Assembly: GCA_007135755.1 (NCBI GenBank)
Contig: SLIG01000142.1
Location: forward strand, 1 to 38,787
DNA from: Cyanobium sp.
Lineage (GTDB): Bacteria; Cyanobacteriota; Cyanobacteriia; PCC-6307; Cyanobiaceae
Direction of reading: 5' to 3'
Length of the DNA: 38,787 nucleotides
Shown piece by piece: positions 3,536 to 38,787 of this stretch. The position numbers were made by a program, and so were the translations under genes. The notes beneath the pieces were generated by a model. That model was not told where the DNA came from, searched no databases, and worked only from the letters and a program-made list of their open reading frames with translations. The number at the start of each line of letters is the position of its first letter. Position 1 is the stretch's first letter.

Positions 3536-3715
3536 GGGCTTTCAGCGGATTGTCCACAACAACCATAGGAACCGGCCTCACGGCTCCCCGTGCCGCTGAT
3601 CACCTGCGGCCAGTTGCCTTCATGAATCCTTACCTGCCGACCTGGATCCCCTGGCCTGCCCCAGAGCCAGCGTGAGGCCCTCTGCGGCATCTGCCAGGGT
3701 GGATCCGGAGTGGCA

Positions 3716-3737
3716 ACGGCGATGACACGGCGATGAC
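3716..3737 (+). repeat. 11-bp tandem duplication covering the pyrC start; creates a four-codon upstream ORF
   Basis: The 11-mer ACGGCGATGAC occurs twice in tandem, at 3716-3726 and 3727-3737. Each copy contains an ATG. The first ATG (3722) opens a frame of four codons, Met-Thr-Arg-Arg, that stops at TGA 3734-3736. That stop overlaps the pyrC ATG at 3733-3735 in an ATGA arrangement. The repeat is seen directly; any effect on pyrC translation is inference. Confidence 0.85.
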
Positions 3738-4863
3738 AGGCCCCGAGATTTCAGGTCCGGAGCCCCCGCATCAGCTCACGCTGCGACAGCCCGACGACTG
3801 GCATGTGCACCTGCGCGACGGGGCCATGCTGCAGGCAGTGGCCGGAGCCACCGCGGCCCAGTTCGCCCGGGCGATCGTGATGCCCAACCTGCGGCCCCCC
3901 ATCACCACCGTGGCGGCGGCCAGCGCCTACCGGGAGCGCATCCGTGAGGCCCTGCGGGATGGCTGCCCCTTCCAGCCGCTGATGACCGCCTACCTCACCG
4001 ACACGATCGAGCCGGCGGAGGTGGAGCGGGGCTTCGCCGAGCAGGTGTGGGTGGCCTGCAAGCTCTATCCCGCCGGCGCCACCACCAACTCGGCGGCGGG
4101 GGTCACGGCCATCGAGGCGATCACGCCGGTGCTGGCGGTGATGGAGCGGATCGGGATGCCGCTGCTGATCCACGGCGAGGTGGTGGACCCCGGGGTGGAC
4201 ATCTTCGATCGCGAGGCGGTGTTCATCGAGCGGGTGCTGGCGCCGCTGCTGCAGCGTCATCCGGAGCTGAAGGTGGTGCTGGAGCACATCACCACCGCCG
4301 ATGCGGTGGATTTCGTGCGCAGCGGCCCGCCCACCCTGGCGGCCACCATCACCCCCCACCACCTGCACATCAACCGCAACGCCATGTTCGCGGGCGGCCT
4401 GCGGCCCGATTTCTACTGCCTGCCGGTGGCCAAGCGGGAGCTGCACCGCCTGGCCCTGCGCGCCGCCGCCACCTCGGGCAACCCGAAGTTCTTCCTCGGC
4501 ACCGACAGTGCCCCCCATGGCCGCGGCGCCAAGGAATCGGCCTGCGGCTGCGCCGGCATCTACAACGCCCCCTTTGCGATCGAGAGCTACGCGGCGGTCT
4601 TCGAGCAGGAGCGGGCCCTCGATCGCCTGGAGGGGTTTGCCAGCGAGCACGGACCGCGCTTCTACGGCCTGCCGCTCAATGCCGGCACGATCACCCTGGT
4701 GCGCGAGCCGGTGGTGGTGCCCCAGCGGCTGCATGGCAATGACGCCGCCGGCACCGCTGTGGAGCTCGTGCCCTTTCACGCCGGCGAGACCCTGCCCTGG
4801 CGCCTGCGCGGAGGGATTACGAGGTATGTCGGGCCCTCGCCCGGCCCAGTCGCCGTGCCCTAA
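3733..4863 (+). CDS. pyrC: Dihydroorotase
   Basis: PyrC cyclises N-carbamoyl-L-aspartate to dihydroorotate, the third step of UMP synthesis. The 376-residue protein is of the class II (E. coli PyrC-like) type. The metal-binding HVH is at residues 24-26 in DDWHVHLRDG. The bridging lysine lies in ACKLYPAGATTNS, further histidines in LLIHGEV and VLEHITT, and the catalytic aspartate in GTDSAPHGRGAKES. MPNLRPP, the substrate-loop region, is also present. The start is fixed by the frame, since the other ATG, 11 bases upstream, stops after four codons. The next gene, the pyrF-pyrE fusion, starts 24 bases after the stop, which makes a compact pyrimidine pair. The N-terminal ten or so residues before LTLRQPDDWH are not conserved in type. 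Confidence 0.95.
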   Translation: MTGPEISGPEPPHQLTLRQPDDWHVHLRDGAMLQAVAGATAAQFARAIVMPNLRPPITTVAAASAYRERIREALRDGCPFQPLMTAYLTDTIEPAEVERGFAEQVWVACKLYPAGATTNSAAGVTAIEAITPVLAVMERIGMPLLIHGEVVDPGVDIFDREAVFIERVLAPLLQRHPELKVVLEHITTADAVDFVRSGPPTLAATITPHHLHINRNAMFAGGLRPDFYCLPVAKRELHRLALRAAATSGNPKFFLGTDSAPHGRGAKESACGCAGIYNAPFAIESYAAVFEQERALDRLEGFASEHGPRFYGLPLNAGTITLVREPVVVPQRLHGNDAAGTAVELVPFHAGETLPWRLRGGITRYVGPSPGPVAVP

Positions 4864-4887
4864 CAACGCTGCAGGCAGCCCCCGGTC

Positions 4888-6393
4888 ATGGGCTTTTTCG
4901 TCCAGCTCACCGAGGCCATGGCCGATCGCCAGTCGTTGCTGGTGACCGGCCTGGACCCCAACCCCGAGATGCTGCAGAGCTGGGCGGCACGCCGCGGCAT
5001 GGCCAACCGCTCCTTCCTCAGCCAGGCACGGCACTGGATCAAGGCGGTGATCGAGGCCACCGCCCCCCACGTGTGCGCCTACAAGCCCAGCCTCGGCTTC
5101 TACCAGGCCCTGGGGCCGGTGGGGCTGGAGCTGCTGCTGGAGGTGCGTGAGCTGGTGCCGCCCGATCTGCCCCTGATCATCGACAGCAAGCACGGCGACC
5201 TCAACTCCTCCTCGGCCCTTGCCCACTACCTGTTCCGGGAGCTGGCCGCCGATGCCGTGAGCCTCTCGCCGCTGCCCGGCCAGGACATTGCCGCCCCGTT
5301 CCTGCTCTACCCCGGAAAGGCGGTGGTGATGAGCTGCCACAGCTCCAACCAGACGGCCCGGGTCATCCAGCACTTCCCCAGTGAGGACGACCCGCTCTAT
5401 CTGCGCATCGTGCGCGAAACCCTGCTCTGGGGCACCCAGGAGCAGCTGCTGCTGGAGGTGGGCACCAGCGATCCGGAGGTCCTGGCCCGGGTGCGGCAGG
5501 TGGCCCCGGAGCGCTTCCTGATCCTGCGCAGCCTCTGGGGGGAGGAGGAGAAACTGGAGGCGATGCTGCAGGCGGGCTTCACCGGCGCAGGCGACGGACT
5601 GCTGCTGCCCCTGCCCCAGAACCTGCTGGTGGAGGACGACATGGCCCAGCGCGCCGCTGCGCTGAAGGCCCAGATCAACGCCGTGCGCGACCGCTGGCTG
5701 GAGCAGCGTCAGGGCAGCGCCAGCTGCGAGCTCTGGCTGGCGGGCAACGCCCCCGAGCCCGTGGCGTCGCCGGGCGCCGCGGCGCCGGAGCCGATGGAGT
5801 CGCTGATCCTCGATCTGTTCGACATCGGCTGCCTGCTGTTCGGCGAGTACGTGCAGGCCTCCGGGGCGGTGTTCAACTACTACGTGGATCTACGCCAGAT
5901 CATCTCCGACCCCAACCTCTTCCACCGGGTGCTGGATGCCTATGCCGGCTGCATGGGCGAGCTGGCCTTCGATCGCATCGCCGGCATTCCCTACGGCTCG
6001 TTGCCCACCGCCACGGGCCTGTCGCTGCTGCTGCGCAAGCCCCTGATCTACCCCCGCAAGGAGGTGAAGGCCCACGGCGCCCGGCGGCTGATCGAGGGCG
6101 ACTTCGAGGAGGGCGACCTGGTGGTGGTGGTGGACGACATCCTGATCACCGGCGGCAGCGTGCTGGAGGGCATCGCCAAACTGGAGAGCTCCGGCCTGGT
6201 GGTGCAGGACGTGGTGGTGTTCCTCGACCACGGCGGCGACCACGACCGCCATGCCCGCGAGCGCCTGGCGGCGGCGGGCTACCGCTGCCATGCCGTGCTC
6301 GATATCGAGCGCATCACCCGGGTGCTGCACGGCGCCGGCCGCCTCAGCGACGAGCAGGCCGCCACGCTGCGGCCAGGGCTGGCCCTGGGCTAG
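4888..6393 (+). CDS. pyrF-pyrE: Bifunctional orotidine-5'-phosphate decarboxylase / orotate phosphoribosyltransferase (reverse-order UMP synthase)
   Basis: This 501-residue fusion would catalyse the last two steps of UMP synthesis. Residues 1 to about 275 form the OMP decarboxylase barrel: [20 protein letters not shown] and the catalytic Lys/Asp segment [13 protein letters not shown], followed by [10 protein letters not shown] linker rich in Ala, Pro and Glu (about 280-300) leads to the orotate phosphoribosyltransferase domain, with [15 protein letters not shown] and the PRPP-binding loop [13 protein letters not shown]. The order, decarboxylase first, is the reverse of animal UMP synthase. 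It is known in cyanobacteria and kinetoplastids. The gene lies 24 bases after pyrC. The start ATG at 4888 precedes the conserved FVQLTEAM helix directly. The fusion is a continuous frame with no sign of a frameshift. Confidence 0.95.
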
Positions 6394-19909: not shown

Positions 19910-21551
19910 GGCTGAAGTGCGCCTTGGCCTCGTAGAGGGTTTCGCCGTCGATGCTCACCAGGCCCCGTTCCCGGGCGAAGGCCTCCGTGTTGCGCCGCAC
20001 TTTGCCGCGCACGAAGAAGGGAATGCGGGAGAGTTCCGCCTCGCCATCGGCTGTCCAGCGCAGTTCGCCGTTTCCGGGGGTGGCAGCTGCCTCGGCGGCC
20101 AGTGAAGTAGCGGATTCGGCGTCTGGGATGGCGGAGGGGATGCCTGATCGGGAGCCTGCTGGGGCGGCCTCGGCGAGGTGGCTGCGATGGCCCTCCACGA
20201 ATTCGAAGTCGTGGCGGAACATGCCGATCAGGTGCTCCTCCAGGCCCATCATCAGTGGATGCACCCAGCTGTCGAAGATCACGTTGGCCCCCTCCCAGCC
20301 CATCTGGGGTGAGGTGCGGGCCGGCACGTCCTGCACGTGCAGCGGTGAGCTGATCACGGCGCAGGGGATCCCCAGGCGCTTGGCGCTGTGGCGCTCCATC
20401 TGGGTGCCCAGCACCAGCTCCGGTGCCGCCTCCGCCATCGCCGCTTCCACCGCCAGGTAGTCGTCGCTGATCAGGGCCTCGAGGCCCAGCTCCTTGGCGG
20501 CGGCCCGCACCTCGCGGGCCTGCTCGCGGCTGTAGCTGCCCAGGCCCACCACCTGGAATCCCAGTTCGCGGCTGGCGATGCGGGCGGCGGCGATGGCGTG
20601 GGTGGCGTCGCCGAAGATGAACACCCGCTTGCCGGTGAGGTAGGTGGAATCCACGGAGCGCGAATACCAGGGCAGGCGCGAGCGCCGCTCGGCTTCACAC
20701 ACCCCATCGGCGCCGGCCACGAGATCGGCCGGCAGCTCCAGGCCCAGCACGCCATGCAGCTCGCGCAGGAAGGCCGTGGTGGCGCCGATGCCGATCGGCA
20801 CCGTGCGCACCGTGGCCATCCCGAAGCTGCGCTCCAGCCAGCTGCACGCCGGGCCTGCCAATTCGGGATAGAGGCAGAGGTTGGCATCGGCGTCAGGCAG
20901 GCGCACCAGGTCGGCGGGGCGGGCCCCCAGGGGGGCCACCACGTTCACGTCGATGCCGTGGTCGGCCAGCAGCGCCGTGATCTCGCGCACGTCGTCGCGG
21001 CAGCGGAAGCCCAGCAGGGAGGGGCCCAGCAGGTTCACCCGCGGCCGGCGGCCCTCCTGGCGCCAGCGGCCGGGATCCGGCTTCTCGCTTCCCGGTGGGG
21101 GCACCTGGGCCTTGAGCAGGCCCCGCACCAGCTGGTAGAGGGTTTCGGCGGCTCCCCAGTTCTCCTTCTTGGAGTAGGCGGGCAGCTCCAGGCTCACCAC
21201 CGGGATGCCGCCCAGGTCCATGCCGCCGGCCAGGGCGCCGGGCTGGTCCTGGATCAGCTCGGCGGTGCAGCTCTCACCCACCAGCAGGGCCTCGGGCGCA
21301 TAGCGCTCCACCGCCTCGGCGATCGTGCGCGTCACCAGCTCGGCGGTGTCGCCGCCCAGGTCGCGGGCCTGGAAGGTGGTGTAGGTGACCGGTGGCCGTT
21401 TGTCGCGCCGCTCGATCATCGTGAACAGCAGATCGGCATAGGTGTCTCCCTGGGGGGCATGCAGCACGTAGTGCACCCCCTCCATCGAGGCGGCGACGCG
21501 CAGGGCGCCCACGTGGGGCGGACCTTCGTAGGTCCAGAGGGTGAGGTCCAT
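19905..21551 (-). CDS. chlB: Light-independent protochlorophyllide reductase, subunit B
   Basis: ChlB pairs with ChlN in the nitrogenase-like catalytic component. The 548-residue protein starts [15 protein letters not shown], the family N-terminus. Asp36 (in [12 protein letters not shown]) matches the aspartate known to complete the 4Fe-4S cluster of this enzyme. Other family segments are [39 protein letters not shown] and the C-terminal small domain ending [14 protein letters not shown] variable Ala/Ser-rich linker (about 445-495) precedes that domain. The frame is open further upstream, but the chosen ATG at 21551 matches the family and lies 37 bases after the chlN stop. The product is oxygen-sensitive in known systems. 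Confidence 0.97.
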
Positions 21552-21588
21552 GGAGGCGGTGCAGGGGCGAACGGGGTGGGCGGTTGGC

Positions 21589-25073
<3,485 letters not shown>

Positions 25074-25105
25074 GCTGCCTGGCGGTGGTTGGTTTAATAC
25101 GCCCA

Positions 25106-25128
25106 CAGATCCGCAGATCCGGATCCGG
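25106..25128. repeat. GATCCG-type repeat array in a divergent promoter region
   Basis: CAGATCCG occurs twice in tandem (25106-25121), followed by a further GATCCGG. It lies between the divergent DUF2126 and RCK-channel genes. The segment CAGATCCGCA is shared exactly with 16910-16919, in another divergent region next to potassium-channel genes. The shared string is seen directly; a regulator is inference. Confidence 0.55.
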
Positions 25129-25163
25129 GTTGCTCGGCCCCCGCCTCAGGTCCCCGCTTCTGG

Positions 25164-26282
25164 ATGGCTTCCCCCCCCTGGCGACGGCGCCGTCCCCCAT
25201 CCAGCCGCAGCAACCGCGCCTGGCGGGCGCCGGTGGCCCTGGCTTTGGTGGTGAACCTGGCGGCCCTGGGCTACCGCCTCACCGAGGGCTGGGACTGGGG
25301 CGATTGCTACTGGATGGTGGCGATCACCCTGAGCACCATCGGCTACGGGGAGGTGCATCCGCTCTCCTCCTCAGGCCGGCTGGTCACCGCCCTGCTGATC
25401 CTGGGCGGGTTGGTGGTGGTGCAGATCAGCATCCAGGGGGTGCTGGGGCTGAGTGAATCGGGCTATTTCCGGCGCCTGCGCGAGCGCCGTTTCCGCAACT
25501 GGTTGAAGGCCATGCAAGATCACGTGATTCTCTGCGGCTACGGCCGCATCGGCCAGGAGATCGCCCAGCAGGTGACCCGCGAGGGGGTGGAGCTGCTGGT
25601 GGTGGAGACCGATCCGGAGCGCCGCGAGGCCGCCGAGCAGGAGGGCCTGCCTGTGCTGGTGGCCGATGCCACCCTCGATGAAACCCTGGTGGAGGCCGGC
25701 ATCCACCGCTGCCGCTCGCTGGTGGTGGCCCTCTCCAGCAATGCCGCCAACCTCTACGTGGTGCTCAGCGCCCGGGGCCTGGCTCCGCGCTGCCGGCTGA
25801 TCGCCCGCTCCGACAGCAACGAGGCGGAGCGCAAGCTGCGCCTGGCCGGGGCCGATGAGGTGGTGAGTCCGTATGTGAGCGGCGGCCGCATGATGGCGGC
25901 CACGGCCCTGCGGCCCCTGGCCGTGAGCTTCATGGACCTGCTGGCGGGCAGCGACTGCGAGGTGGAGGAGTTTCTGCTCAGCTCCGATGCGGCCGATCTG
26001 GGCCGCCTCAACGGCCTCAGCCTGGGCGAGCTGGAGCTGGGCCGGCGCACCGGCGCCCTGGTGCTGGCGGTGCGGCAGCCCCGGCAACAGGTTGAGAGTG
26101 GGCTGCAATACCGCGGCTCCAGCTACGCCCTGCCGGATCAGGAGCTGGTGGCCAACCCCGGCCGGGAGTTTGCGCTGCAGCCCGGACAGCTGCTGGTGGT
26201 GATGGGCAGCAAGGAGGACCTGGCCCGGGTCAGCGACCTGCTGGGGCCGGCCCTGCACAGCGTCGAGCACATGTCCAGTTAG
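25164..26282 (+). CDS. Potassium channel with RCK (TrkA-N/TrkA-C) regulatory domains
   Basis: A 372-residue MthK-like channel. TM1 is at about 22-40, the pore follows with filter TIGYGE at 58-63, and TM2 is at about 72-95. The cytoplasmic TrkA-N Rossmann domain begins DHVILCGYGRIGQEIAQQV, with the nucleotide glycines at 125-130 and the acidic end of the second strand in VVETDPE. A TrkA-C domain fills about 285-365 (LGELELGRRTGALVLAVR, then LQPGQLLVVMGSKEDLARV). The start ATG at 25164 is preceded by no strong ribosome site. It diverges from the DUF2126 gene and ends 16 bases from a convergent unknown gene. It is the third potassium channel gene in the window, of a different class from the other two. 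Confidence 0.92.
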   Translation: MASPPWRRRRPPSSRSNRAWRAPVALALVVNLAALGYRLTEGWDWGDCYWMVAITLSTIGYGEVHPLSSSGRLVTALLILGGLVVVQISIQGVLGLSESGYFRRLRERRFRNWLKAMQDHVILCGYGRIGQEIAQQVTREGVELLVVETDPERREAAEQEGLPVLVADATLDETLVEAGIHRCRSLVVALSSNAANLYVVLSARGLAPRCRLIARSDSNEAERKLRLAGADEVVSPYVSGGRMMAATALRPLAVSFMDLLAGSDCEVEEFLLSSDAADLGRLNGLSLGELELGRRTGALVLAVRQPRQQVESGLQYRGSSYALPDQELVANPGREFALQPGQLLVVMGSKEDLARVSDLLGPALHSVEHMSS

Positions 26283-26298
26283 CGACGGCCCCTTGGGC

Positions 26299-26862
26299 TC
26301 AGGAGTCGGCTTCCTCGAGGATCTGCCGCTTGAGCTCGATCTGGTAACCCTCGGTCATGGCATCGAGCGCTTCGGCTTCCTGCTCGTCCACCTGCAGGGC
26401 CTCGGCCAGCACCAGGTCGGGCACCTGGGTGGCACCGACGGCCGTGAGCGCCATGCCCAGCGAGGCGCTGTCGCGGTGCCAGATCGAGGCCGCCTCGGCC
26501 AGCTTGGTGAGGGTGTCGTCGCTCACCACCTCGCCGCTGCGCTGGGCGATCGCCGCCGCCAGTCGCCGGTCGTCGAACACCGCCGCGGCGGCCAGGTGAG
26601 CGGCGTGCAGGGCCCCCAGGCTGTAGAGGGCTTCCGATCGCAGGGTCACCAGGCTCTTGCCCAGGGCCCGTTCGCGCACCCCCTGCCAGGGCACCGACGG
26701 GGTGGCCTCATCGCCGGCGGCCGGTCCATCGTCGAGGTCGCCCAGGGCAGGCAGTTTGCGGCTGGCCAGGCTGAGCTCGCCGCCGGCGGGGGGATCAAGC
26801 CGTTCCCCCACCACCCGCAGCCAGCGTCCGATTCCCTGCCGTAGTGCCCTGCGTACTCCCAT
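26299..26862 (-). CDS. Unknown protein, last gene of the Rrf2/MFP/HD-GYP set
   Basis: A 187-residue cytosolic protein with no motif that I recognise. The N-terminus is basic and amphipathic (GVRRALRQGIGRWLRVVGERL), suggesting contact with a membrane or nucleic acid. The rest is helical and acidic, ending AMTEGYQIELKRQILEEADS. The middle segment LYSLGALHAAHLAAAAVFDDRRLAAAIAQRSGE looks like a regular helix bundle. The start is the ATG at 26862, preceded by CGCAGGG, a weak ribosome site; the frame is open beyond it but overlaps the HD-GYP gene. The 34-base gap to the HD-GYP stop suggests one transcript. Confidence 0.75.
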   Translation of the reverse strand: MGVRRALRQGIGRWLRVVGERLDPPAGGELSLASRKLPALGDLDDGPAAGDEATPSVPWQGVRERALGKSLVTLRSEALYSLGALHAAHLAAAAVFDDRRLAAAIAQRSGEVVSDDTLTKLAEAASIWHRDSASLGMALTAVGATQVPDLVLAEALQVDEQEAEALDAMTEGYQIELKRQILEEADS

Positions 26863-26896
26863 CCCTGCGTTGCGGCTGCTCCCACTGTGGCCCCGA

Positions 26897-28072
26897 TCAG
26901 GCGTCGGTGTCGCGGAAGCGCTCACGGATCGCCTCCACGTCCCCGCGCCGCCGTGCCACGGCCGCCACGCAGTCGGGGTCGAGCTTGCCCATCGCCACCA
27001 ACCGCTCCAGTTCACTCAGGGCGGCGTCGAGGCTCCAGGACGTCTTGTAGGGCCGCTGGCTGGTGAGGGCGTCGAGCACGTCGGCCACAGCGATGATCCG
27101 CGCCTCCAGGCTGATCGCCTCGCCGGCCAGGCCACGCGGGTAACCCGAACCATCGAGGCACTCATGGTGGTCGGCCACCACGTTCCGCATCATCGCCGCC
27201 TCCTGGCGGTGTTCGAGGTCGAAGTCGCCGATCAGCTTCTCCAGCACCTCCACGCCCATGCGCACGTGGTTTTCCATCAGCTCCCGCTCGCCGGCATCCA
27301 GCTGGCCCGGTTTGAGCAGCACCTCGTCGGGGATGCCGATCTTGCCGATGTCGTGAAGGGGCGCGAACAGGTAGAGGTTTTCGATGAACTCATCGCTGAG
27401 TCCGTGGCTGGCCTGCAGGTCCCGGCCGATCAGGCGGGCGTAGTGGGCCATGCGCTCCAGGTGGCCGCCGGTTTCGGTGTCGCGCAGGTTGGCGAACTCG
27501 CGGGCCACCGCCGCCGACAGGCTGATGGAGCGCACCAGGTCGAGCTCCTGGCTGATCGTGAGGTTGATCAGGGTGGCGAACAGTTCCAGGCTGCGCTGCA
27601 CCGGGGCGGTGAAGGCGGCCGGCCGCAGTGAATCGAAGAACAGAATCCCGATCAGTTCGCCCCGCTGCAGCAGCGGCACGGTGAAGGAGGAGCGGTAGCC
27701 CTGCTCCAGCAGCCAGCGGGAGTGGGGAGTGTCGCCGCTGATCGCCGTCGGGATGTCGTCGATCACCCGGCTGCCGCCGCTGCGGGCCAGCTGGCTCAGG
27801 GAAGCGCTCTCAGCCAGCCGCCATTCGTAGGCCTCGATGGGGGTGCCGCAGCGGGTGCTGTTCACGAAGGTGCGCAGCAGATCGTCGCCCTGGTCGTAGA
27901 GGGCGCAGCCGATCCGGTCGACCGCCGGCACCACCTCCAGCAACTGGCCATGGAGCTGGCGCAGCCGGGCCCCGAGCCCCTCGCGGTCGCGGGTCTGGCT
28001 GCCGCCGCCGTCGGCGCCGGTGAGGGGGTGAAGGGAAACCATCCCGTTGGCGGGGGCCACGGACTTCTCCAT
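26897..28072 (-). CDS. GAF / HD-GYP domain phosphodiesterase
   Basis: A 391-residue signalling protein. Residues about 35-175 look like a GAF sensor domain (YRSSFTVPLLQRGELIGILFFDS). Residues about 185-385 form an HD-GYP domain: HD at 240-241 in APLHDIGKIGIPD, the HH pair at 302-303 and GYP at 310-312 in HHECLDGSGYPRGL. These metal-binding and signature residues are intact, so cyclic-di-GMP hydrolysis is likely, by analogy to the family. No transmembrane segment is seen. It follows the RND adaptor gene by 33 bases and precedes an unknown gene by 34, in a leftward operon headed by an Rrf2-type regulator. This could tie second-messenger signalling to export or to redox sensing; that is inference. 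Confidence 0.92.
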   Translation of the reverse strand: MEKSVAPANGMVSLHPLTGADGGGSQTRDREGLGARLRQLHGQLLEVVPAVDRIGCALYDQGDDLLRTFVNSTRCGTPIEAYEWRLAESASLSQLARSGGSRVIDDIPTAISGDTPHSRWLLEQGYRSSFTVPLLQRGELIGILFFDSLRPAAFTAPVQRSLELFATLINLTISQELDLVRSISLSAAVAREFANLRDTETGGHLERMAHYARLIGRDLQASHGLSDEFIENLYLFAPLHDIGKIGIPDEVLLKPGQLDAGERELMENHVRMGVEVLEKLIGDFDLEHRQEAAMMRNVVADHHECLDGSGYPRGLAGEAISLEARIIAVADVLDALTSQRPYKTSWSLDAALSELERLVAMGKLDPDCVAAVARRRGDVEAIRERFRDTDA

Positions 28073-28105
28073 GATCGGCCCCTGGGAGCCGGCGGGGGAG
28101 GGGGG

Positions 28106-29260
28106 TCACCCACCCACCTGGATCGGCAGCCCGTGGCGCAGGTTGAGCAGCCGGGAGGTGATCACCGCCTGGCCGGGCTCCAGGCCGCTGAGCACCGGAT
28201 AGCGGTTGTTCTGCAGCGGGCCGAGCCGCACCGGCACCTGGATGGCGAAGCGGCTGTCCGGGGGCAGGCTGCGCAGGCTGTCGAGATCCACCTGCCCGGA
28301 GTTCTGCTCGAGATCGGCCAGGGTGCCGGGCACGAACACGAACGCCTGGCCGGACTGCTGGCTCACGGCCTGGAAGGGCACCGACAGCTCGCGCCGCTCC
28401 TCCAGCAGCAGCCGCGCCAGGGTGCGCTGGCCGCTGCGCAGGCTGCCTGAGGGGTTGTCGAACTGGGCCTTGACCAGCAGGAACTGGCTGGCGTCGTCGA
28501 TCAGGGGATCCACCGAGCCCACCCGGCCCCGGCTGAGCTCCCGCTCGCCGGCGGGATCGAGCAGCACCACGGTCTGCCCGGGCTGCACGCGATCGGCGTA
28601 GAGGGCCGGCACCTCCAGCCGGGCCTGGAGCTGGTTGTTGCGCACGATGCTCGTGAAGGGTTCGTTGGCCTCGATCACATCCCCCACCTTCACCTGCAGG
28701 TCGGCCACGATGCCGCTGATCGGCGCGCGCACATCGCGGAAGGCGAGGTCGGCCTCGCGGGCCCGCAGTTCCTCCCGTGAGGCCACGGCCTGCTGGCGGA
28801 ACTCATCGCGCTGCTGCACGCTGGCCGCTCCCTGTTCGGCCAGGGTGGCAAAGCGCTCGGCATTGATCTGGTCGGTGCGGGCCTGGGCGCGCAGCCGGGC
28901 CACCTCGGCCTGGGCCTGCACCTGATCGAGCACCAGCACGAGTTCGCCGGCGCGCACGGGATTGCCCTGGCTCACGCGCAGTTCGCGGATGCGCCCCCCA
29001 GCCTGGGAGGACAGCTGCACCTCCTCGATCGCCTCCAGGGTGCTGACCGTATCGATGCTGGTGCTGAAGGGTGTGGGGGCCAACATCTCGCTGCTGACGC
29101 TCAGCGGCGGCGGCGTGGGGCGGGCCTCCCCGTTCTGAGTGCGGCAGCCCACCAGCAAGGGCAGGGCCAGCAGTGTGGCGGCCAGGGCAGCAGCCAGAGC
29201 GGAGCGACTGTCATGGCGGCCGGAGTTCGCCGCTCCCGCCCCCACCTCCTCAGCTGCCAT
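28106..29260 (-). CDS. RND efflux membrane fusion protein (lipoprotein adaptor)
   Basis: A 384-residue periplasmic adaptor of the AcrA/HlyD type. The N-terminus is a lipoprotein signal with lipobox LVGC (ATLLALPLLVGCRTQNG). The lipoyl-like half-motifs are GGRIRELRVSQGNPVRAGELVLVLD and FRDVRAPISGIVADLQVKVGD, separated by a helical hairpin (QAEVARLRAQARTDQINAERF and onward). A beta-barrel and membrane-proximal domain follow. The start is the ATG at 29260, the one giving the signal peptide; the open frame continues upstream but overlaps the Rrf2 gene. No permease adjoins it. The only RND permease in the window lies 18.5 kb away at 6.4-9.6 kb, and whether the two work together is unknown. It starts 40 bases after the Rrf2 stop. 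Confidence 0.92.
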   Translation of the reverse strand: MAAEEVGAGAANSGRHDSRSALAAALAATLLALPLLVGCRTQNGEARPTPPPLSVSSEMLAPTPFSTSIDTVSTLEAIEEVQLSSQAGGRIRELRVSQGNPVRAGELVLVLDQVQAQAEVARLRAQARTDQINAERFATLAEQGAASVQQRDEFRQQAVASREELRAREADLAFRDVRAPISGIVADLQVKVGDVIEANEPFTSIVRNNQLQARLEVPALYADRVQPGQTVVLLDPAGERELSRGRVGSVDPLIDDASQFLLVKAQFDNPSGSLRSGQRTLARLLLEERRELSVPFQAVSQQSGQAFVFVPGTLADLEQNSGQVDLDSLRSLPPDSRFAIQVPVRLGPLQNNRYPVLSGLEPGQAVITSRLLNLRHGLPIQVGG

Positions 29261-29300
29261 GGAGATCGCTGCGCAGCCAGCAGCGTAGGAGCCACGCGAG

Positions 29301-29732
29301 TCAGATGTAGAACATCTGCTGGGGCTGGGCCCGGACCGCCCGCTCCTCAAGCAGGTGTTCCAGGGTTGTGGCTTCGAGCAGGCGGGCACGGGCCTGTTCC
29401 AGCCGCGTTTCCAGGCCGGCCACCACCCCGAACTCCAGCGTGGAGCGGTCACCCTGGCGCTCGGTCGTGGCGTCCTGCTCCAGACAGGCGATCACCTCGG
29501 CCACGCTGATCGCGGCGGGCGGACGGGCCAGCTGGTAGCCGCCCCGGGGACCACGGATGCTGCGCAGGAGCCCCCCCTTGCGCAGGCTGGTGAGCATCTG
29601 GTCGAGGTAGCGGGCCGGGATGCCCTGGCGCCGGCAGATTTCCCCCGCCTGAAGCGTGCTTCCCGGAGGGTCGACGGCGGCCAGTTCGATCAGGGCCACC
29701 AGGCCGTATTCGGTCTTGGCACTGAAGGTCAT
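29301..29732 (-). CDS. Rrf2-family transcriptional regulator
   Basis: A 143-residue DNA-binding protein. The N-terminal winged helix reads FSAKTEYGLVALIELAAVDP, then the recognition region IPARYLDQMLTSLRKGGLLRSIRGPRGGYQLA, which is the family core. After the AEVIACLEQ helix, the cysteine trio that holds the 2Fe-2S cluster of IscR is absent; only Cys residues at EICRR and IACLEQ are seen. It therefore probably does not carry an IscR-type cluster. The start is the ATG at 29732. It diverges from the TspO-like gene over about 76 bases and sits at the head of the adaptor/HD-GYP operon, which it may control. Confidence 0.9.
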   Translation of the reverse strand: MTFSAKTEYGLVALIELAAVDPPGSTLQAGEICRRQGIPARYLDQMLTSLRKGGLLRSIRGPRGGYQLARPPAAISVAEVIACLEQDATTERQGDRSTLEFGVVAGLETRLEQARARLLEATTLEHLLEERAVRAQPQQMFYI

Positions 29733-29808
29733 GGGCCCGCTGCCGGCCGCTGCTGGGGCCATTCTCCCAGGTGAACCCCGGTGTGGGGGTGGGGATTGGG
29801 CCGTGGGA

Positions 29809-30282
29809 GTGTGGTGGGCCTGGTTTCGGTCTGCCGTGCGCGCTGCCCTGGTGATCCTGGTGGTGATGGTGCTGGTGGCGATCAGCCTCAACCCCCGGCG
29901 GGAGGATTTTGCCTGGTTTCTGCAGCTGCGCCGGCCCGCCTGGCTCACCTTCGAGCCCCTGATTCCCCTGATCTGGTTGCTGATCTACGGGTGTTTCTTC
30001 GTTTCGGCGTGGCTGGTGTGGACCGCCAGTGGCCGCTGGGACCTGATGGCCGGCTACCTGCTGCTGCTGGTGCTCGTCCAGAGCTACACCCTGGTGATCT
30101 GCCGCAGCCGCCGGCTGGTCTCCGGCACTGCCGTTGGATTCTGCGGCTGGGTGTGGGGCATCGCCCTGACGATCGCGGTGGCTCGGGTGAGCGATGGTGG
30201 CTGGTTGCTGTTGGTTCCCTATCTCCTCTGGAGCCCGGTGGGTACCTTCGTCACCTGGCAGATGCAGCGCCTCAACCGCTGA
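29809..30282 (+). CDS. TspO/MBR-like integral membrane protein
   Basis: A membrane protein of about 157 residues with five hydrophobic segments. RRPAWLTFEPLIPLIWLLIYG resembles the RPPWxPPxxxxxxxWxxLY region of the TspO/MBR family, whose members bind tetrapyrroles or related ligands. The remaining helices (LMAGYLLLLVLVQSYTLV, GFCGWVWGIALTIAVARV and LLLVPYLLWSPVGTFVTWQM) fit the five-helix plan, and the last resembles the family PYxxWxxxA segment. Start choice is uncertain: GTG codons at 29803, 29809 and 29836 are all in frame, and no ATG lies before the first membrane segment. It diverges from the Rrf2 gene. Assignment is by pattern only. Confidence 0.68.
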   Translation: MWWAWFRSAVRAALVILVVMVLVAISLNPRREDFAWFLQLRRPAWLTFEPLIPLIWLLIYGCFFVSAWLVWTASGRWDLMAGYLLLLVLVQSYTLVICRSRRLVSGTAVGFCGWVWGIALTIAVARVSDGGWLLLVPYLLWSPVGTFVTWQMQRLNR

Positions 30283-30367
30283 AGGCTGGCCGCTTCCACA
30301 CTGCTCGATCACCGCTGATCGCCGTGATCGCTGATTGGCTATGCTTTGGAAGTTAATGGGTTGAACC

Positions 30368-30736
30368 ATGCTGACGGGACAGGAACTTCTCTCGCGAGTC
30401 AAGGAGCTCGGCGACGCGTCGAAATCGGAGCTCGTGCGCGAATGCGGCTACGTGAGCACCAAGAAGGACGGCAGCGAGCGGCTCAACTTCACCGCCTTCT
30501 ACGAAGCGCTGCTGGAAGCCAAGGGCGTCAGCCTCGGTGATGGCTCCGCCCAGGGCCGCGGCAAGGGTGGCCGCAAGCTCAGCTACGTCACCAAGGTGCA
30601 GTTCAACGGCAATCTGCTGGTGGGCAAGGCCTACACCGCCCAGCTCGGCCTCCAGCCCGGCGACGAGTTTGAAATCAAGCTCGGCCGCAAACAGATCAAG
30701 CTCATTCCCATCGGCGGTACCGACGAGGAAGAGTGA
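30368..30736 (+). CDS. cyAbrB-type transcriptional regulator
   Basis: A 122-residue cyanobacterial AbrB-like DNA-binding protein. It begins MLTGQELLSRVKELGDASKSELV, with CGYVSTKKDGSERLNFTAFYEALLEAKG in the middle. The C-terminal AbrB-like domain is SYVTKVQFNGNLLVGKAYTAQLG, followed by PGDEFEIKLGRKQIKLIPI. In known cyanobacteria such proteins influence carbon/nitrogen balance and other global responses. The start ATG at 30368 is 85 bases after the TspO-like gene. Upstream, TATGCT at about 30339 is a possible -10 box, about 29 bases before the ATG; no good -35 is seen. A small hairpin follows the stop. Confidence 0.95.
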   Translation: MLTGQELLSRVKELGDASKSELVRECGYVSTKKDGSERLNFTAFYEALLEAKGVSLGDGSAQGRGKGGRKLSYVTKVQFNGNLLVGKAYTAQLGLQPGDEFEIKLGRKQIKLIPIGGTDEEE

Positions 30737-30742
30737 TCGTGG

Positions 30743-30757
30743 CGGCCCGATGGGCCG
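30743..30757. repeat. Perfect hairpin just after cyAbrB
   Basis: CGGCCC and GGGCCG form a perfect six-base stem with a three-base loop, seven bases after the cyAbrB stop codon. No T-run follows. The ATG of the next small gene (30750) lies in the loop and stem, so the fold would hide that start. Confidence 0.5.
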
Positions 30758-30935
30758 TCCCCCCGGCGATGACGACGATCTGCCCGCGGCTCAGGGTCTT
30801 CCGCTCCCACTACGCCTGCTGGCCCTGATCGGTGCGTTCTCCTTCCTGATGATCGGCCTCAGCAGTGTGGTGCCGCTGCTGAGACCTCCTCCGCCCAGGC
30901 CCATGCCGGATCAGCAGCGGGGCCCTCTCGTCTGA
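30750..30935 (+). CDS. Small single-span membrane protein
   Basis: A 61-residue protein with a hydrophilic N-terminus (GRPPGDDDDLPAAQGLP), one likely membrane helix (about 19-42, LPLRLLALIGAFSFLMIGLSS) and a Pro-rich tail ending MPDQQRGPLV. The length and layout resemble small proteins common in picocyanobacteria, but I recognise no family. It starts 14 bases after cyAbrB and is probably read from the same transcript. Its start codon sits inside the hairpin at 30743-30757, and the upstream region lacks a clear ribosome site, so translation may depend on passage of the cyAbrB ribosome. The frame extends upstream across cyAbrB without an alternative start that looks natural. Confidence 0.6.
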   Translation: MGRPPGDDDDLPAAQGLPLPLRLLALIGAFSFLMIGLSSVVPLLRPPPPRPMPDQQRGPLV

Positions 30936-31072
30936 GCTGCCCCTCTCTGCGGCAGCCTTCTCTTTCCGGCTGGCTGGTGCCGGGTGTCGCTCCTAGGCTC
31001 TGCTGAGGTTCAACGCGCCCTTCGCCAGGTCACCGGCATCGCTATCGGCCCAACCCAACCCTGCACGAAACC

Positions 31073-31846
31073 TTGAGCAGCCACTCTCTCCTGCTCGACG
31101 CTCTGCTGCTGTTCCTGATCATTCTGGGGCGCTACCTGCTCACCGCCGGTGGATCGTGGTGGCTGCTGCGCATCTGGGGCCGGCACCGAACCCCGGAACC
31201 CACTCCCGCCCAGCGCCGCCGCTGCGATGCGGGGATCCGCCATGACATCCGTCTGTCGGTGTCTTCAGCCGCGGTGTTCGCTGTGGGCGCCGGGCTGGTG
31301 CTCTGGCTGCAGGCCCATGGCCTCACCCGCCTCTACACCCGGCCCGATGCCTACGGCTGGTGGTACATCGCCGTGAGTTACCTGGCGGTGCTGGTGCTTC
31401 AGGACGCGGTGTTCTACGCCACCCACCGCCTGTTTCACCATCCGCGGCTTTACCACTGGTGCCACCACGGCCATCACCGCTCTCACCATCCCACCCCCTG
31501 GACCTCGTTTGCCTTCGATCCCCCTGAAGCGGTGGTGCAGGCCCTGTTTCTGGTGCTGGTGGTGGCGCTGATGCCCCTGCACCTGATCACCCTGGTGGCG
31601 GTGCTGAGCACCATGACGGTGTGGGCGATCGTGAACCACGTGGATCTGGATCACCTCCCCCAGCGCTTTCCCCACCATCTGTTCGGCCGCTGGCTGATCG
31701 GTCCGGCCCACCATTGCCTCCATCACCGCCGGCCCGGGGTGCATTTCGGCCTCTACTTCACCTTCTGGGACCGGATCGGCGGCACCGAAGACCGCAGCTA
31801 TGCCGCCAGCGTGGGAGCACCGGCCGTGGAGTCGGGGGCGGGGTGA
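31073..31846 (+). CDS. Fatty acid hydroxylase / sterol desaturase family membrane di-iron protein
   Basis: A 257-residue membrane protein with the histidine clusters of this superfamily: THRLFHHPRLYHWCHHGHH, then NHVDLDH, then HHCLHHRRPGVHFG near the C-terminus. Four or so hydrophobic segments surround them. The enzymes use a di-iron site to hydroxylate or desaturate lipids or carotenoids; the substrate here is not visible. The start is a TTG at 31073, because no ATG or GTG is in frame before the first membrane segment. The open frame continues to about 31007 and includes a CTG 12 bases upstream, so the N-terminus is uncertain. It lies alone between cyAbrB's small neighbour and a hairpin terminator. 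Confidence 0.88.
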   Translation: MSSHSLLLDALLLFLIILGRYLLTAGGSWWLLRIWGRHRTPEPTPAQRRRCDAGIRHDIRLSVSSAAVFAVGAGLVLWLQAHGLTRLYTRPDAYGWWYIAVSYLAVLVLQDAVFYATHRLFHHPRLYHWCHHGHHRSHHPTPWTSFAFDPPEAVVQALFLVLVVALMPLHLITLVAVLSTMTVWAIVNHVDLDHLPQRFPHHLFGRWLIGPAHHCLHHRRPGVHFGLYFTFWDRIGGTEDRSYAASVGAPAVESGAG

Positions 31847-31857
31847 GCGCCGGATAA

Positions 31858-31879
31858 CCGCCCCGCGCTGGTGGGGCGG
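31858..31879 (+). terminator. Possible terminator hairpin after the hydroxylase gene
   Basis: CCGCCCC (31858-31864) and GGGGCGG (31873-31879) form a perfect seven-base GC stem with an eight-base loop, 12 bases after the hydroxylase stop. The T-tract is weak and displaced (CTTT about ten bases on), so termination efficiency is doubtful. Confidence 0.45.
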
Positions 31880-31914
31880 GCGCGCCAGCTTTAAAAGACT
31901 TCACATCTGGAACC

Positions 31915-32097
31915 ATGAGCGTTTCTCAGGTGCATCGGGAGGCCATGACCTCCGGCGTGATCACAGTTCAGGAAATCCACTGGCTGGCCCGTCACCGCGA
32001 TCAGTTCAGCCCGCAGGAGCGGCAGGTGGTGGCGGGACTGATCCGCTTTCTGCAGCAGGGCGTGATCAACTACGGCTGCCGCCTGCAGGCTGTGTGA
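31915..32097 (+). CDS. Small conserved protein of picocyanobacterial type
   Basis: A 60-residue helical protein starting MSVSQVHREAMTSGVITVQE and ending FLQQGVINYGCRLQAV. I recall similar small proteins in marine and freshwater Synechococcus (same N-terminus, and a Gly-Cys-Arg near the end), but no function is known. The ATG at 31915 has TCTGGAACC before it, a weak ribosome site. TTTAAAAG at about 31890 may be part of a promoter -10 region. It precedes the transglutaminase-like gene by 34 bases in the same direction. Confidence 0.72.
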   Translation: MSVSQVHREAMTSGVITVQEIHWLARHRDQFSPQERQVVAGLIRFLQQGVINYGCRLQAV

Positions 32098-32131
32098 TGG
32101 CACCCTGAAGGGCCGGGAGACGCTCAACGGC

Positions 32132-33085
32132 ATGTTGTTCCACGTGCGCCACGTCCTGCGGTACGCCTACGAGCGACCGGTGTTTCTCGAGCCCACCACC
32201 GTGCGGCTCACCCCCCGCACCGACCCCGCCCAGCGGCTGCTGCACCACCAGCTCCAGGTCACCCCGGAGCCGAGCGGCAGCAGCCGGGTGCTGGAACCGG
32301 ACGGTGCCGAGAGCGTGGTGCTGTGGTTCAACGCCCTGCAGGAGGAGCTCACCATCGCGGTGGACACGGTGGTGCGAACCACCCGGGACAACCCTTTCGA
32401 CTGGATCATCACCCACTCCCCCGCCAGACGTCTGCCGGCGGCCTACCCGGCCGAGTACGGCGTCTCCCTGGCCCCGGCTCTGGGGGCAACGGCAGCGCCG
32501 ATCGCGGAGCCGGTGCGCCAATGGGCGGCCGAACAGGCCGCGGCGGTGGATGGTTCCACCACCGATTTCCTGATGCATCTGGCCGACACGATCCACCACG
32601 GTTTTCACCACATCGGCCGGCCCGACGGCGAGCCGATGGCCGCCGCCGACACCCTGGCCAGCCGCACCGGGGCCTGCCGCGACACCGCCATCCTCTACGT
32701 GCAGGCCTGCCGCAGCCTGGGGCTGGCGGCCCGCTTCGTGAGCGGCTACTCGATGCACCACCCCGAGGAGGTGAGCGAGCACGAACTGCACGCCTGGGCC
32801 GAGGTGTACCTGCCGGGGGCCGGCTGGCGGGGCTACGACCCCAGCCTCGGGCTGGCGGTGGCCGACGGCCATGTGGTGCTGGCGGCCTCCCCCGACCATC
32901 ACCTGGCGGCACCCGTGAGCGGCCGCTACCGCGGCACGGGGGTGGGTTCGTCGATGCGCTATGCGGTGGAGGTGCGCACCGCCGAAACCCTCGACGCCCT
33001 GCAGGCCCTGGATCGCGACAAGCCCGTGGCCATGCCGGCGCCGGAGCAGTGGATCAGCGGCGAGGGCACGCCCGGCCAGGGGTGA
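32132..33085 (+). CDS. Transglutaminase-like protease-fold protein
   Basis: A 317-residue protein with an N-terminal beta domain (VRHVLRYAYERPVFLEPTTVRL), common in bacterial transglutaminase-like proteins, and a catalytic core. The Cys-His-Asp triad is Cys182 (RTGACRDTAILYV), His220 (HELHAWAEVYLP) and Asp236 (GYDPSLG). No signal peptide is seen, so it is probably cytosolic. In other bacteria such proteins occur with DUF2126, alpha-E and permuted ATP-grasp proteins, a set of uncertain function. A DUF2126 gene is in this window, seven kb away, but no alpha-E or ATP-grasp gene is. The ATG at 32132 directly precedes the conserved first strand. Confidence 0.93.
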   Translation: MLFHVRHVLRYAYERPVFLEPTTVRLTPRTDPAQRLLHHQLQVTPEPSGSSRVLEPDGAESVVLWFNALQEELTIAVDTVVRTTRDNPFDWIITHSPARRLPAAYPAEYGVSLAPALGATAAPIAEPVRQWAAEQAAAVDGSTTDFLMHLADTIHHGFHHIGRPDGEPMAAADTLASRTGACRDTAILYVQACRSLGLAARFVSGYSMHHPEEVSEHELHAWAEVYLPGAGWRGYDPSLGLAVADGHVVLAASPDHHLAAPVSGRYRGTGVGSSMRYAVEVRTAETLDALQALDRDKPVAMPAPEQWISGEGTPGQG

Positions 33086-33165
33086 TCGCTGCGACGGCGT
33101 CTGTCCTGGTTGACGGGTCCATCGGTTGGTGGCCATAACCAAGGGGAGAGGCATGCCCGATCGCC

Positions 33166-33435
33166 ATGGCCATCGACACCGGCTCAGAGGTGGTGAGGAA
33201 CGACGACATGCCGCAACCGGCCAGTTGGCGTCTATCCGCTGTTCTGCTCGCTGCGGTCGAGTCGCAGGCCCGAGTGGAGGGCGTGAGTGCCGACGAGATC
33301 GCCGCCCGTGTGGTGGAGGCAGGTCTGAATGAGCTGGGGCTCCTGCCCAACGGCCGTTGCTCCCTGCGCACGGGCTTGTGCGGTGGCGGTCCGGTCCCGC
33401 TGCCGATCCAGCAGCAGGGCAGCTCGCCCTTGTGA
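33166..33435 (+). CDS. Small ribbon-helix-helix-like protein
   Basis: An 89-residue protein. The middle, SWRLSAVLLAAVESQARVEGVS followed by ADEIAARVVEAGLNELG, has the strand-helix-helix pattern of ribbon-helix-helix DNA-binding proteins, including antitoxins. The C-terminal 30 residues (after LPNGRC) are Gly/Pro/Gln-rich and may be unstructured. No toxin gene adjoins it. The start ATG at 33166 and an internal ATG at residue 15 are both possible. It lies 80 bases after the transglutaminase-like gene and ahead of the low-GC accessory region. The family call is from pattern only. Confidence 0.55.
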   Translation: MAIDTGSEVVRNDDMPQPASWRLSAVLLAAVESQARVEGVSADEIAARVVEAGLNELGLLPNGRCSLRTGLCGGGPVPLPIQQQGSSPL

Positions 33436-33715
33436 GTCGCCACTCTCCGTCGCCACTCGTCAGCGCCCGGCGCCTGCTGCGTTGCCCGCCGGCGCGCCGG
33501 GCCTGGTGGGCGGTGGTGGGGAGACGCTGCGGCGGGCAGGGAGGCGCCTGCCGGCCTCTGGCCCTCCATGGACCGAGACGGGAAGCGGGTGCGCTGGCCC
33601 ATGTCGCGGTGTTGCTTCCACCGGGTTCTGGTGGTAAAAAAATTCCGCCAACCCACCAGACCACAGTTTGCACATACGCTGCGGTCAATGACCCGACTGA
33701 AAACCGGAGGCGACC

Positions 33716-34150
33716 ATGACACCCCTGCACAAGGGTCAGTACTTCTGCGGTTCAGTCCAGCTTGAAGTGTCTGGCGACCCTGAGAGTATGGGGTAGTGCC
33801 ATTGCACATCCTGCCGCTCCTGGTCCGCCAGCCCGGTGCATGCATCGTCCATGTGGAAACCGGATGTGGTGAGGGTGGTAGCTGGTGGTGAACACCTGCA
33901 AACGTTTCACAAAACATCCGAAAGCCTCAGTTGCCGGCAGTTCTGCGGCTGCTGCAGTGGGCATGTGATGATCCGATCGCCGGAATGGAACCTGATCGAT
34001 GTAAGTCCAGCGATTCTTCCGTCGCTACGGTTTGTTCCGGCTGGCCATGTGAATTGCTCTGAATCGGTCTTGCAGATCCAGAATGGCCTGCCAAAGTTTC
34101 GTGATTTCCCGAGAGAGTATGGTGGCTCCGATGAGCTCGTGCCAGAGTAG
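33716..34150 (+). pseudogene. GFA / Mss4-like zinc protein gene broken by an in-frame TAG
   Basis: Read through one TAG at 33794-33796, the frame gives a complete protein of the glutathione-dependent formaldehyde-activating (GFA) family, about 144 residues. Its parts are KGQYFCGSVQLEVSGDPESM, the stop, then CHCTSCRSWSA, LQTFHKTSES, FCGCCSGHVM, LIDVSPAILPS and, at the end, LPKFRDFPREYGGSDELVPE. The TAG stands where the family normally has Tyr in GYCHC, so one base change (TAC or TAT to TAG) explains it. The first zinc-site cysteine also appears lost, with YFCG where the family has CxCG. GGAGG lies six bases before the ATG. The stretch is near 53% GC in sampled lines, well below its neighbours. 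The family name is historical; activity on formaldehyde is doubtful for most members. Confidence 0.82.
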
Positions 34151-34860
34151 TGCTACCCAGTTCAGCGTGATGCCGAAAGACCACCATCATTAAGCACAAG
34201 TAGCTGCGTATCTGTTGCCTGGCTTGCTTTGAACTGGTCTGCCTTTCTGATCATGAGTGGCGGACCACAACGTTTCCCTGGAAGCGAATCTTGCCCGCGA
34301 ACAAGTCTTGCACGCGAACAATCTCATGGTGATGGCCTAGGCGATAGAGCACAAGACAGGCCAGGCGCACGCTGGTGGTTCCTCCCATGGCGGCGGACGC
34401 GACGCACACCGCCCCTCCGCTGCACTAAGGAGGAGGTGTGCGCCGCCCGTGCCGGTGTGTGCGCCAGATCACCGAGGCACAGGGGGGCATGGCCTGGGGC
34501 CCAGCCGGCCTGAGGACCCCAGCGGCAGAGCTGATCGAGGAGCTTGCCGGACCCGCCGCGCTTCAGGAGCCGCACCCCGCTGCCCTCAGCGGAAAGCTCT
34601 GGATGGATGGAGACACGCCAGCGGATGCCGCCGTACCGGTCAGGTTTTGGCCTCATGGCAGACGATTCCCTGCGGCTGACCTGCTTGCTGCGATGAAGAG
34701 ACGATTCCTCGCGGCCACGTCATTCTCCAGCTGATCCGCTGCTGGTGCTGCGGCTGGGCTGAGCGGGTTCAATTCCGAGATACTCGTGGCGCTAAGAGCG
34801 GTGATCTCCGGAATGATCCCAGCCATGCACCCCGTCTCCAGACGGTGCTGGGGTGTGGGG
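34151..34860. other. Gene-poor, lower-GC stretch with short direct repeats
   Basis: About 700 bases with no gene I can defend firmly. It contains a tandem pair of near-identical 16-mers, TCTTGCCCGCGAACAA (34289-34304) and TCTTGCACGCGAACAA (34306-34321), and a looser pair, AGACGATTCCCTGCGG (34660-34675) and AGACGATTCCTCGCGG (34699-34714). A 45-codon minus-strand frame at 34251-34388 starts ATGGGAGGA and reads naturally in part (SVRLACLVLYRLGHHHEIVRV), but it has no known relative. Composition and the broken neighbour suggest decayed, acquired DNA. Confidence 0.5.
34438..34734 (+). CDS. Doubtful small ORF with a strong ribosome site
   Basis: A frame of 98 residues from the GTG at 34438, preceded by AAGGAGGAG. 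The residues AAELIEELAGPAALQEPHP and FPAADLLAAMKRRFLAATSF read like natural helices, while the first 20 are basic and unlike a protein start. The ribosome site is among the best in the window, but it lies within two bases of the GTG, closer than usual. An internal ATG at residue 18 is also possible. I recognise no family. The ORF contains both copies of the 34660/34699 direct repeat in its 3' part. It may be a remnant of an acquired gene, or non-coding. Confidence 0.28.
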   Translation: MRRPCRCVRQITEAQGGMAWGPAGLRTPAAELIEELAGPAALQEPHPAALSGKLWMDGDTPADAAVPVRFWPHGRRFPAADLLAAMKRRFLAATSFSS

Positions 34861-37984: not shown

Positions 37985-38149
37985 GGTCGCCGGCGGGGCA
38001 ACGACCATCCACGACGGCATCACGGCGTTCTGATCGAGGCCACTGGATTGGAGCTGCGGCTCCAGCAAGTGGGCCACCGGGGCCCAGCCGCGCAGGCGTG
38101 CGAGGTCTTCCGTCCAGCTGGAGCAGCGGTGGGTGCGGTGCTCCCGTGG

Positions 38150-38359
38150 GCGAGCAGTCCCTTATGCGACTGGCAGGTGAGCAGGGGGATGCAGTGGATT
38201 CCGCTGTGGTGACGCAAGACGTGCTGGTGATCGAGGAAGGGCCACTCCTCGATGGGCTGATCCAGTGAGCCTGTGCTGTGCTTCCCGCTCCCAGGTGTCG
38301 CCGAGGAAAGCCCGCAGGACCGAGACGGGGACTTCGTCGTCCACCAGTGGGTAGGTCAT
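38150..38359 (-). pseudogene. Possible PIN-like (DUF5615-type) toxin remnant in two frames
   Basis: On the minus strand the ATG at 38359 opens a frame reading MTYPLVDDEVPVSVLRAFL, close to the DENVPxxVLRAL start of DUF5615 PIN-like proteins. From about 38265 downward a different frame reads LDQPIEEWPFLDHQHVLRHH, then SGIHCIPLLTC, which resembles the DxDFLDxxxFxxxxHPGIxxL part of the same family. A frameshift between the two would explain this, but the catalytic acid before FLD is not clear. Evidence is weak: similarity is by memory of patterns, and the plus strand carries another candidate. No antitoxin is seen next to it. Confidence 0.28.
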
Positions 38360-38600
38360 GGTCTTGCGCCCTCCCCCCCCGGCCCGCAGCAGGCCCCAGT
38401 TCCGGCAGCAGGGCCGGCTGGCGCTCTGCCTGCAGCGCCGGGCCGATGGCGCCGACCCCATGACGGTGCTGGAGGCATGGATTCAGGAGGCCGTCAGGTT
38501 GGGAGGCAGCCTGCTGGATCCTCCCCGCCTCGAACCCTTCGGAGCCGAGGCCTGTCTGCTGGATCCCGAGGGCAACAGGCTGCTGGTGCTGGTGCAGTGA
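38358..38600 (+). CDS. VOC/glyoxalase-like C-terminal fragment (doubtful gene)
   Basis: A frame of 80 residues. The last 45 (MTVLEAWIQEAVRLGGSLLD, then PPRLEPFGAEACLLDPEGNR and LLVLVQ) match the last helix-strand-strand of a vicinal-oxygen-chelate protein, whose C-terminus often reads DPxGNxxxL. The first 35 residues are Arg/Pro-rich and do not resemble the N-terminal half of that fold, so at most half a domain is present. A second start at 38461 (ATGACGGTG) would give just the 46-residue fragment. It could be a remnant, like others nearby, or a small real protein. It ends 11 bases before the A-run of the leftward terminator. Confidence 0.38.
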   Translation: MVLRPPPPARSRPQFRQQGRLALCLQRRADGADPMTVLEAWIQEAVRLGGSLLDPPRLEPFGAEACLLDPEGNRLLVLVQ

Positions 38601-38611
38601 GGAGTCTGTCC

Positions 38612-38641
38612 AAAACAAAACCCCCAGGCGAGGCCCGGGGG
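38612..38641 (-). terminator. Rho-independent terminator for the leftward gene at the window end
   Basis: Read on the minus strand, CCCCCGGGC, a short loop, then GCCTGGGGG form a strong GC hairpin with one mismatch, followed by TTTTGTTTT. The hairpin is at 38621-38641 and the T-run corresponds to plus-strand A-run 38612-38620. It lies about 30 bases after the stop codon at 38672-38674. Confidence 0.85.
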
Positions 38642-38671
38642 TTGAGGGGAGTCTGGGTATTGGCGTGGAGC

Positions 38672-38787
38672 TCAGAAGCAGAAGGGCAGGAACTGGGTGC
38701 GGCAGGCGGCGTAGCCGTCCACCAGGGCACCGAGGCCGATCTGATGGGCGATGCCAAAGCCCGTGAGCCCTTCCACCACCACGCCGA
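38672..38787 (-). CDS. C-terminus of an unidentified protein (runs off the window)
   Basis: The last 37 residues of a leftward gene are visible, GVVVEGLTGFGIAHQIGLGA followed by LVDGYAACRTQFLPFCF. The stop codon is at 38672-38674. The Gly-rich, weakly hydrophobic run and the aromatic Cys-containing tail do not tell me the family. It could be the end of a small membrane or bacteriocin-like protein, but I do not assign it. That it is a real gene rests on the open frame to the window edge, natural residue use, and the strong terminator just after the stop. Confidence 0.55.
   Translation of the reverse strand, partial: GVVVEGLTGFGIAHQIGLGALVDGYAACRTQFLPFCF

Follow-up and report, generated by a model that had tools for sequence, protein, structure and literature searches.

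The GFA/CENP-V family frame at positions 33716-34150 on the forward strand of the window (the whole stretch of DNA analyzed here, 38,787 nucleotides long) is in our estimation a pseudogene of an acquired GFA-family gene, with a probability of about 90%. As read from the DNA, this locus, referred to here as gfa, descends from the GFA/CENP-V family and is not a working member of it. The original prediction that gene function has been lost is borne out by changes at 5 of 42 near-invariant columns and by the copy in the congener G012, which is cut differently; we argue for loss of function from the neutral-like rate of change at near-invariant sites and from the different break in this congener.

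The frame comprises 144 codons and a terminal TAG. It opens with the ATG at 33716 and continues for 26 codons to an internal TAG at 33794-33796 (codon 27), beyond which a further 117 codons remain open, with no frameshift, up to the TAG at 34148-34150 that ends the frame. PF04828, the Pfam GFA family, matched the frame with X in place of the stop at an E-value of 9.9e-15 and 55.1 bits (cut-off 24.3). When the same profile was searched directly on the window's own genome, a 2.75 Mb draft assembly of 196 contigs, it returned gfa at 54.9 bits with one TAG inside the match, and this was the sole PF04828 match found there. Coordinates and profile match agree that the TAG at codon 27 stops the family frame, as had been predicted. 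The stop lies directly before the conserved CHC and takes the place of the Tyr of GYCHC, also as read originally; the corresponding column holds Tyr in 84 and Phe in 6 of the 90 relatives with which the frame was aligned. Compared with these intact relatives, gfa thus carries a disabling lesion. Scans of the locus for promoters found none, and a terminator scan identified one terminator-like site, which is within chance expectation.

The motif order CxC, CHCxxC, CxxC and the similarity over the whole length place gfa alongside the members of PF04828, from which it differs by the stop at codon 27, by the loss of the first zinc-site Cys, and by four more changes at near-invariant positions. The four-Cys zinc site of Paracoccus denitrificans Gfa (PDB 1x6m/1xa8), which is related by profile (alignment A1 against 1x6m, E 4.1e-5), consists of C31, C33, C99, and C102 according to the available part of the published account (PMC4682968). 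By motif order, codon 9 of gfa (33740-33742) would be the first Cys of CxC and the counterpart of C31; it encodes Tyr, in agreement with the predicted change of Cys to Tyr, whereas the residue is Cys in 89 of the 90 relatives and Trp in one. The frame therefore lacks a complete four-Cys zinc site (CxC plus CxxC) as well as an uninterrupted coding sequence. Two motifs downstream of the stop are unchanged: CHCTSC at 33797-33814, the second zinc-site motif, which by the same analogy would correspond to C52/C54/C57, and CGCC at 33944-33955, the second half of the four-Cys site, which would correspond to C99/C102. The remaining four changes are Ser at codon 81 (33956-33958; Gly in 89/90 relatives), Ser at codon 88 (33977-33979; His in 89/90), Cys at codon 114 (34055-34057; Tyr in 90/90), and Asn at codon 123 (34082-34084; Asp in 90/90). 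The locus had been described as otherwise intact, which holds for the open frame without a frameshift but not for these four conserved codons.

The set of 90 relatives combines the best 80 of at least 544 loci from an alignment scan of public genomes with 9 of 29 plasmid records and 1 viral contig. A single-protein scan of genome contigs found no relative; the alignment scan did. The gfa frame aligns at full length with all 90, and the relatives of the alignment set are 137-144 residues long. Their collection relied on peptide patterns within about columns 26-47, and the five changed columns fall outside these. When near-invariant columns were defined as those in which 89 or more of the 90 relatives agree, 42 qualified, and gfa differs at five (codons 9, 81, 88, 114, and 123); the stop column, with its 84 Tyr and 6 Phe, is outside the set. 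In a leave-one-out count over 39 or 40 columns each, 73 of the 90 relatives had no change and 17 had one, so that gfa, with 5/42 against a maximum of 1 in 39-40 for any relative, shows relaxed constraint. Because of these five changes, gfa looks worn even without the stop. They need not all post-date the loss of the gene, because the long end branch that leads to gfa includes time under selection.

With a looser threshold of 95%, gfa had 8 changes in 55 columns and its intact relative L041 had 8 in 58; we used the stricter 42-column count because three of the eight changes in gfa are traits of its clade. The VHASxMW segment (VHAS, M46) and two extra residues near codons 70-73 were considered as signs of decay and set aside, as they are shared by L040, L041, and L050. 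Private changes in gfa number 15, 14, and 24 at codon positions 1, 2, and 3, a pattern not clearly different from that of three intact relatives.

Among the matches listed, the closest to gfa is L041, from a gammaproteobacterial metagenome-assembled genome (MAG), with 63% identity, followed by L040 (62%) and L050 (54%), both from deltaproteobacterial MAGs (Myxococcota according to the tree tool). Most of the other 77 of the best 80 loci are presumably alphaproteobacterial or unclassified proteobacterial, judging by record titles and genera, and matches among the 29 plasmid records reach 53.6% identity. In a tree of 91 rows, gfa grouped with L040, L041, and L050 with support of 99/97; its end branch of 1.35, against a median of 0.16, is the longest of the 91, a length that makes its placement uncertain. 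The GC content of gfa is 0.56, similar to that of L040 (0.57) and L041 (0.59) and, as noted in the original prediction, lower than in its neighbors, most 500-base pieces of the window having 0.65-0.76. Among 400 sampled genomes of the window's taxonomic family, nine matched profile A1, the window's own genome and the G012 stub included; six of the other seven (all except G160) encode low-scoring, visibly different GFA proteins. Within the genus, 2 of 13 genomes matched PF04828, namely the window's and G010, the protein of which is 27% identical to gfa over residues 6-87. The organism itself is taken to be a cyanobacterium, since its genome contains pieces of psbA (none above the cut-off, several at contig ends) and, among 14 control genomes, Synechococcus elongatus alone gave a match to the psbA model. 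Because the nearest kin are proteobacterial or myxococcal, GC is below the level of the window, and GFA is rare in both family and genus, gfa was probably acquired from outside the cyanobacteria, from a proteobacterial-type source, which is also what the original prediction of acquired DNA had proposed.

The window is collinear with contig C25 of G012 over 13.6 kb (20170-33780, forward strand; 94.3% identity), and the match stops within the gfa frame at codon 22. In G012, gfa has the same start and keeps Cys at codon 9, for which reason the change of this codon to Tyr most likely occurred after the split between the window and G012. Past codon 22 the G012 sequence departs from that of the window into an opposite-strand BrxL N-terminal piece (profile positions 1-33 of 132), a Fic protein, and a second BrxL_N piece. 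The rest of gfa was not found elsewhere in the G012 genome, and much of the window sequence 3' of gfa sits on another G012 contig, C7. The junction of gfa and BrxL may be a rearrangement or a wrong assembly join. At the level of the two assemblies, gfa is broken by different lesions in two congeners. In another congener, G004, the upstream transglutaminase gene (88%) and an 89-codon gene (79%) are present and are followed by other sequence, and no GFA match was found in that genome.

As a separate observation on G012, the two partial BrxL N-terminal pieces (PF20442) and the Fic-family gene between them occupy 3570-5372 of locus L030 on the minus strand of C25, and a second Fic gene and a large helicase come after them; the region beside the gfa stub looks like a worn defense island joined to it.

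We weighed these results against the possibility that the TAG arose by an error of sequencing or assembly in a frame that is intact apart from the altered first zinc site. A single-base error would be enough to create the stop, and the assembly, with its 196 contigs, is a draft. An error at the TAG alone would, however, still leave the other five changes in near-invariant columns, where no relative has more than one (n = 90), and the G012 copy is likewise broken; we therefore regard an error as improbable.

Reading of the TAG as sense, by a suppressor tRNA, pyrrolysine, or leaky termination, with a full-length protein as the product, is less probable still, in keeping with the original prediction, which had ranked readthrough below loss. 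In favor of readthrough, the frame is open past the stop and retains its CHCxxC and CxxC motifs, but release factor 1 was found above its cut-off and the natural end of the gfa frame is also TAG. Among 40 tRNA matches, ARAGORN placed tRNAs at 39 sites in the draft genome, none with the anticodon CUA, and the 40th, at a contig end, was read by eye as Leu-UAA. A PylS match fell below the cut-off (21.1 bits); the same model also matched 13 of the 14 control genomes, in one case above the cut-off. A stop at the column of codon 27 occurs in 0 of 90 relatives, and the G012 copy does not include the region. Thus, neither of the features expected of UAG recoding, a CUA tRNA or pyrrolysine machinery in the genome (a draft) and a stop kept in relatives, was found for gfa. 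It is equally hard to credit programmed or leaky readthrough at the TAG that would yield a little GFA-like protein in which the first zinc site is changed. We also considered a TAG conserved in relatives and rejected it: among the A1 matches in the 400 sampled genomes of the taxonomic family, only that of G256 has a TAG as well, and this more distant GFA has it near its C-terminus. In that minus-strand locus (L123), the TAG stands shortly before the C-terminus at a position where the near relatives L121 and L122 have Gln. Least credible of all is a shortened protein with a new role from an internal GTG at 33836, where a 104-codon ORF does exist, since this ORF is without the CxC and CHCxxC motifs, has no Pfam match, and includes the changed codons 81, 88, 114, and 123.

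For a pseudogene of an acquired gene, the time of loss can be placed roughly by comparison of the window with G012. Divergence between the two sequences is 10% and 12% for the two intergenic pieces beside gfa, 13% for the 89-codon ORF, and 3.3% for the transglutaminase gene, where 3 changes fall on the first, 2 on the second, and 26 on the third codon position. In the shared start of gfa, 3 of 65 bases differ (4.6%), below the value in the flanking intergenic DNA, which, like the 117 open codons behind the stop, speaks against a pseudogene. We simulated evolution without selection at 0.055 changes per site, about half the intergenic distance between the window and G012 (0.10-0.12). The simulation yielded on average 0.76 stops and 5.0 changes over the 42 columns, and 36% of its runs had exactly one stop; the observed values are 1 and 5. 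These numbers fit a loss at about the time of the species split between the window and G012 or later, which is a consistency check and not a date. The loss of gfa is probably recent, as originally proposed, since one stop and no frameshift fit a simulated short time without selection.

The history that best accommodates these data would begin with the acquisition of a proteobacterial-type GFA-family gene by the common ancestor with G012, after which the gene would have ceased to be under selection. In the lineage of the window, point mutations would then have altered the first zinc-site Cys and four other near-invariant positions and turned codon 27 into TAG; in that of G012, a rearrangement would have cut gfa at codon 22, unless the assembly was wrongly joined there. 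Translation of gfa today would most likely stop after 26 residues and give a peptide that lacks a complete zinc site, and so no product with GFA function would be expected.

Against TIGR02820, the S-(hydroxymethyl)glutathione synthase model with a cut-off of 234.55 bits, L040 scored 23.6 bits, and L041 and the window frame gave no match; because these values are far below the cut-off or absent, we do not class the intact kin as S-(hydroxymethyl)glutathione synthases. For Paracoccus denitrificans Gfa itself, activity is disputed: the available part of the published account states that the protein bound glutathione and did not catalyze the reaction under standard conditions (PMC4682968).

The surroundings of gfa contain further features. 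Upstream, the 89-codon ORF at 33166-33435 has no Pfam match; it is open in G012, with 7, 7, and 22 changes at the three codon positions, and its N-terminal part is the most divergent between the window and G012. Because it is open in G012 and the DNA is similar in G004 (79%), it is probably a real small gene. Downstream, the stretch at 34151-34860 is mostly of low GC and has no recognized gene; its reading-frame pieces had no tblastn match in the flanks of the fetched relatives, and the ORF at 34438-34731 had no Pfam match. About 150 bases of it (34483-34632) recur, 79-89% alike, in the window's own genome (twice, on contig C167), in G004 (once), and in G012 (twice), and are possibly a short repeat or remnant. 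Farther along, pieces of 38072-38748 match the G012 contigs C90, C121, and C128 and other congeners in a search that scored 40 candidates for each genome; these matches suggest a multicopy gene or element.

In its patchy distribution, foreign kin, differing lesions in congeners, and relaxed constraint, gfa resembles other bacterial pseudogenes of horizontally acquired genes, with no notable difference. The locus should be annotated as a pseudogene, and as an ordinary dead gene it has little importance beyond annotation. It is nonetheless a tidy example of an apparent gain from outside in one small cyanobacterial branch, with two lesions and a remnant sufficient to place the loss roughly.
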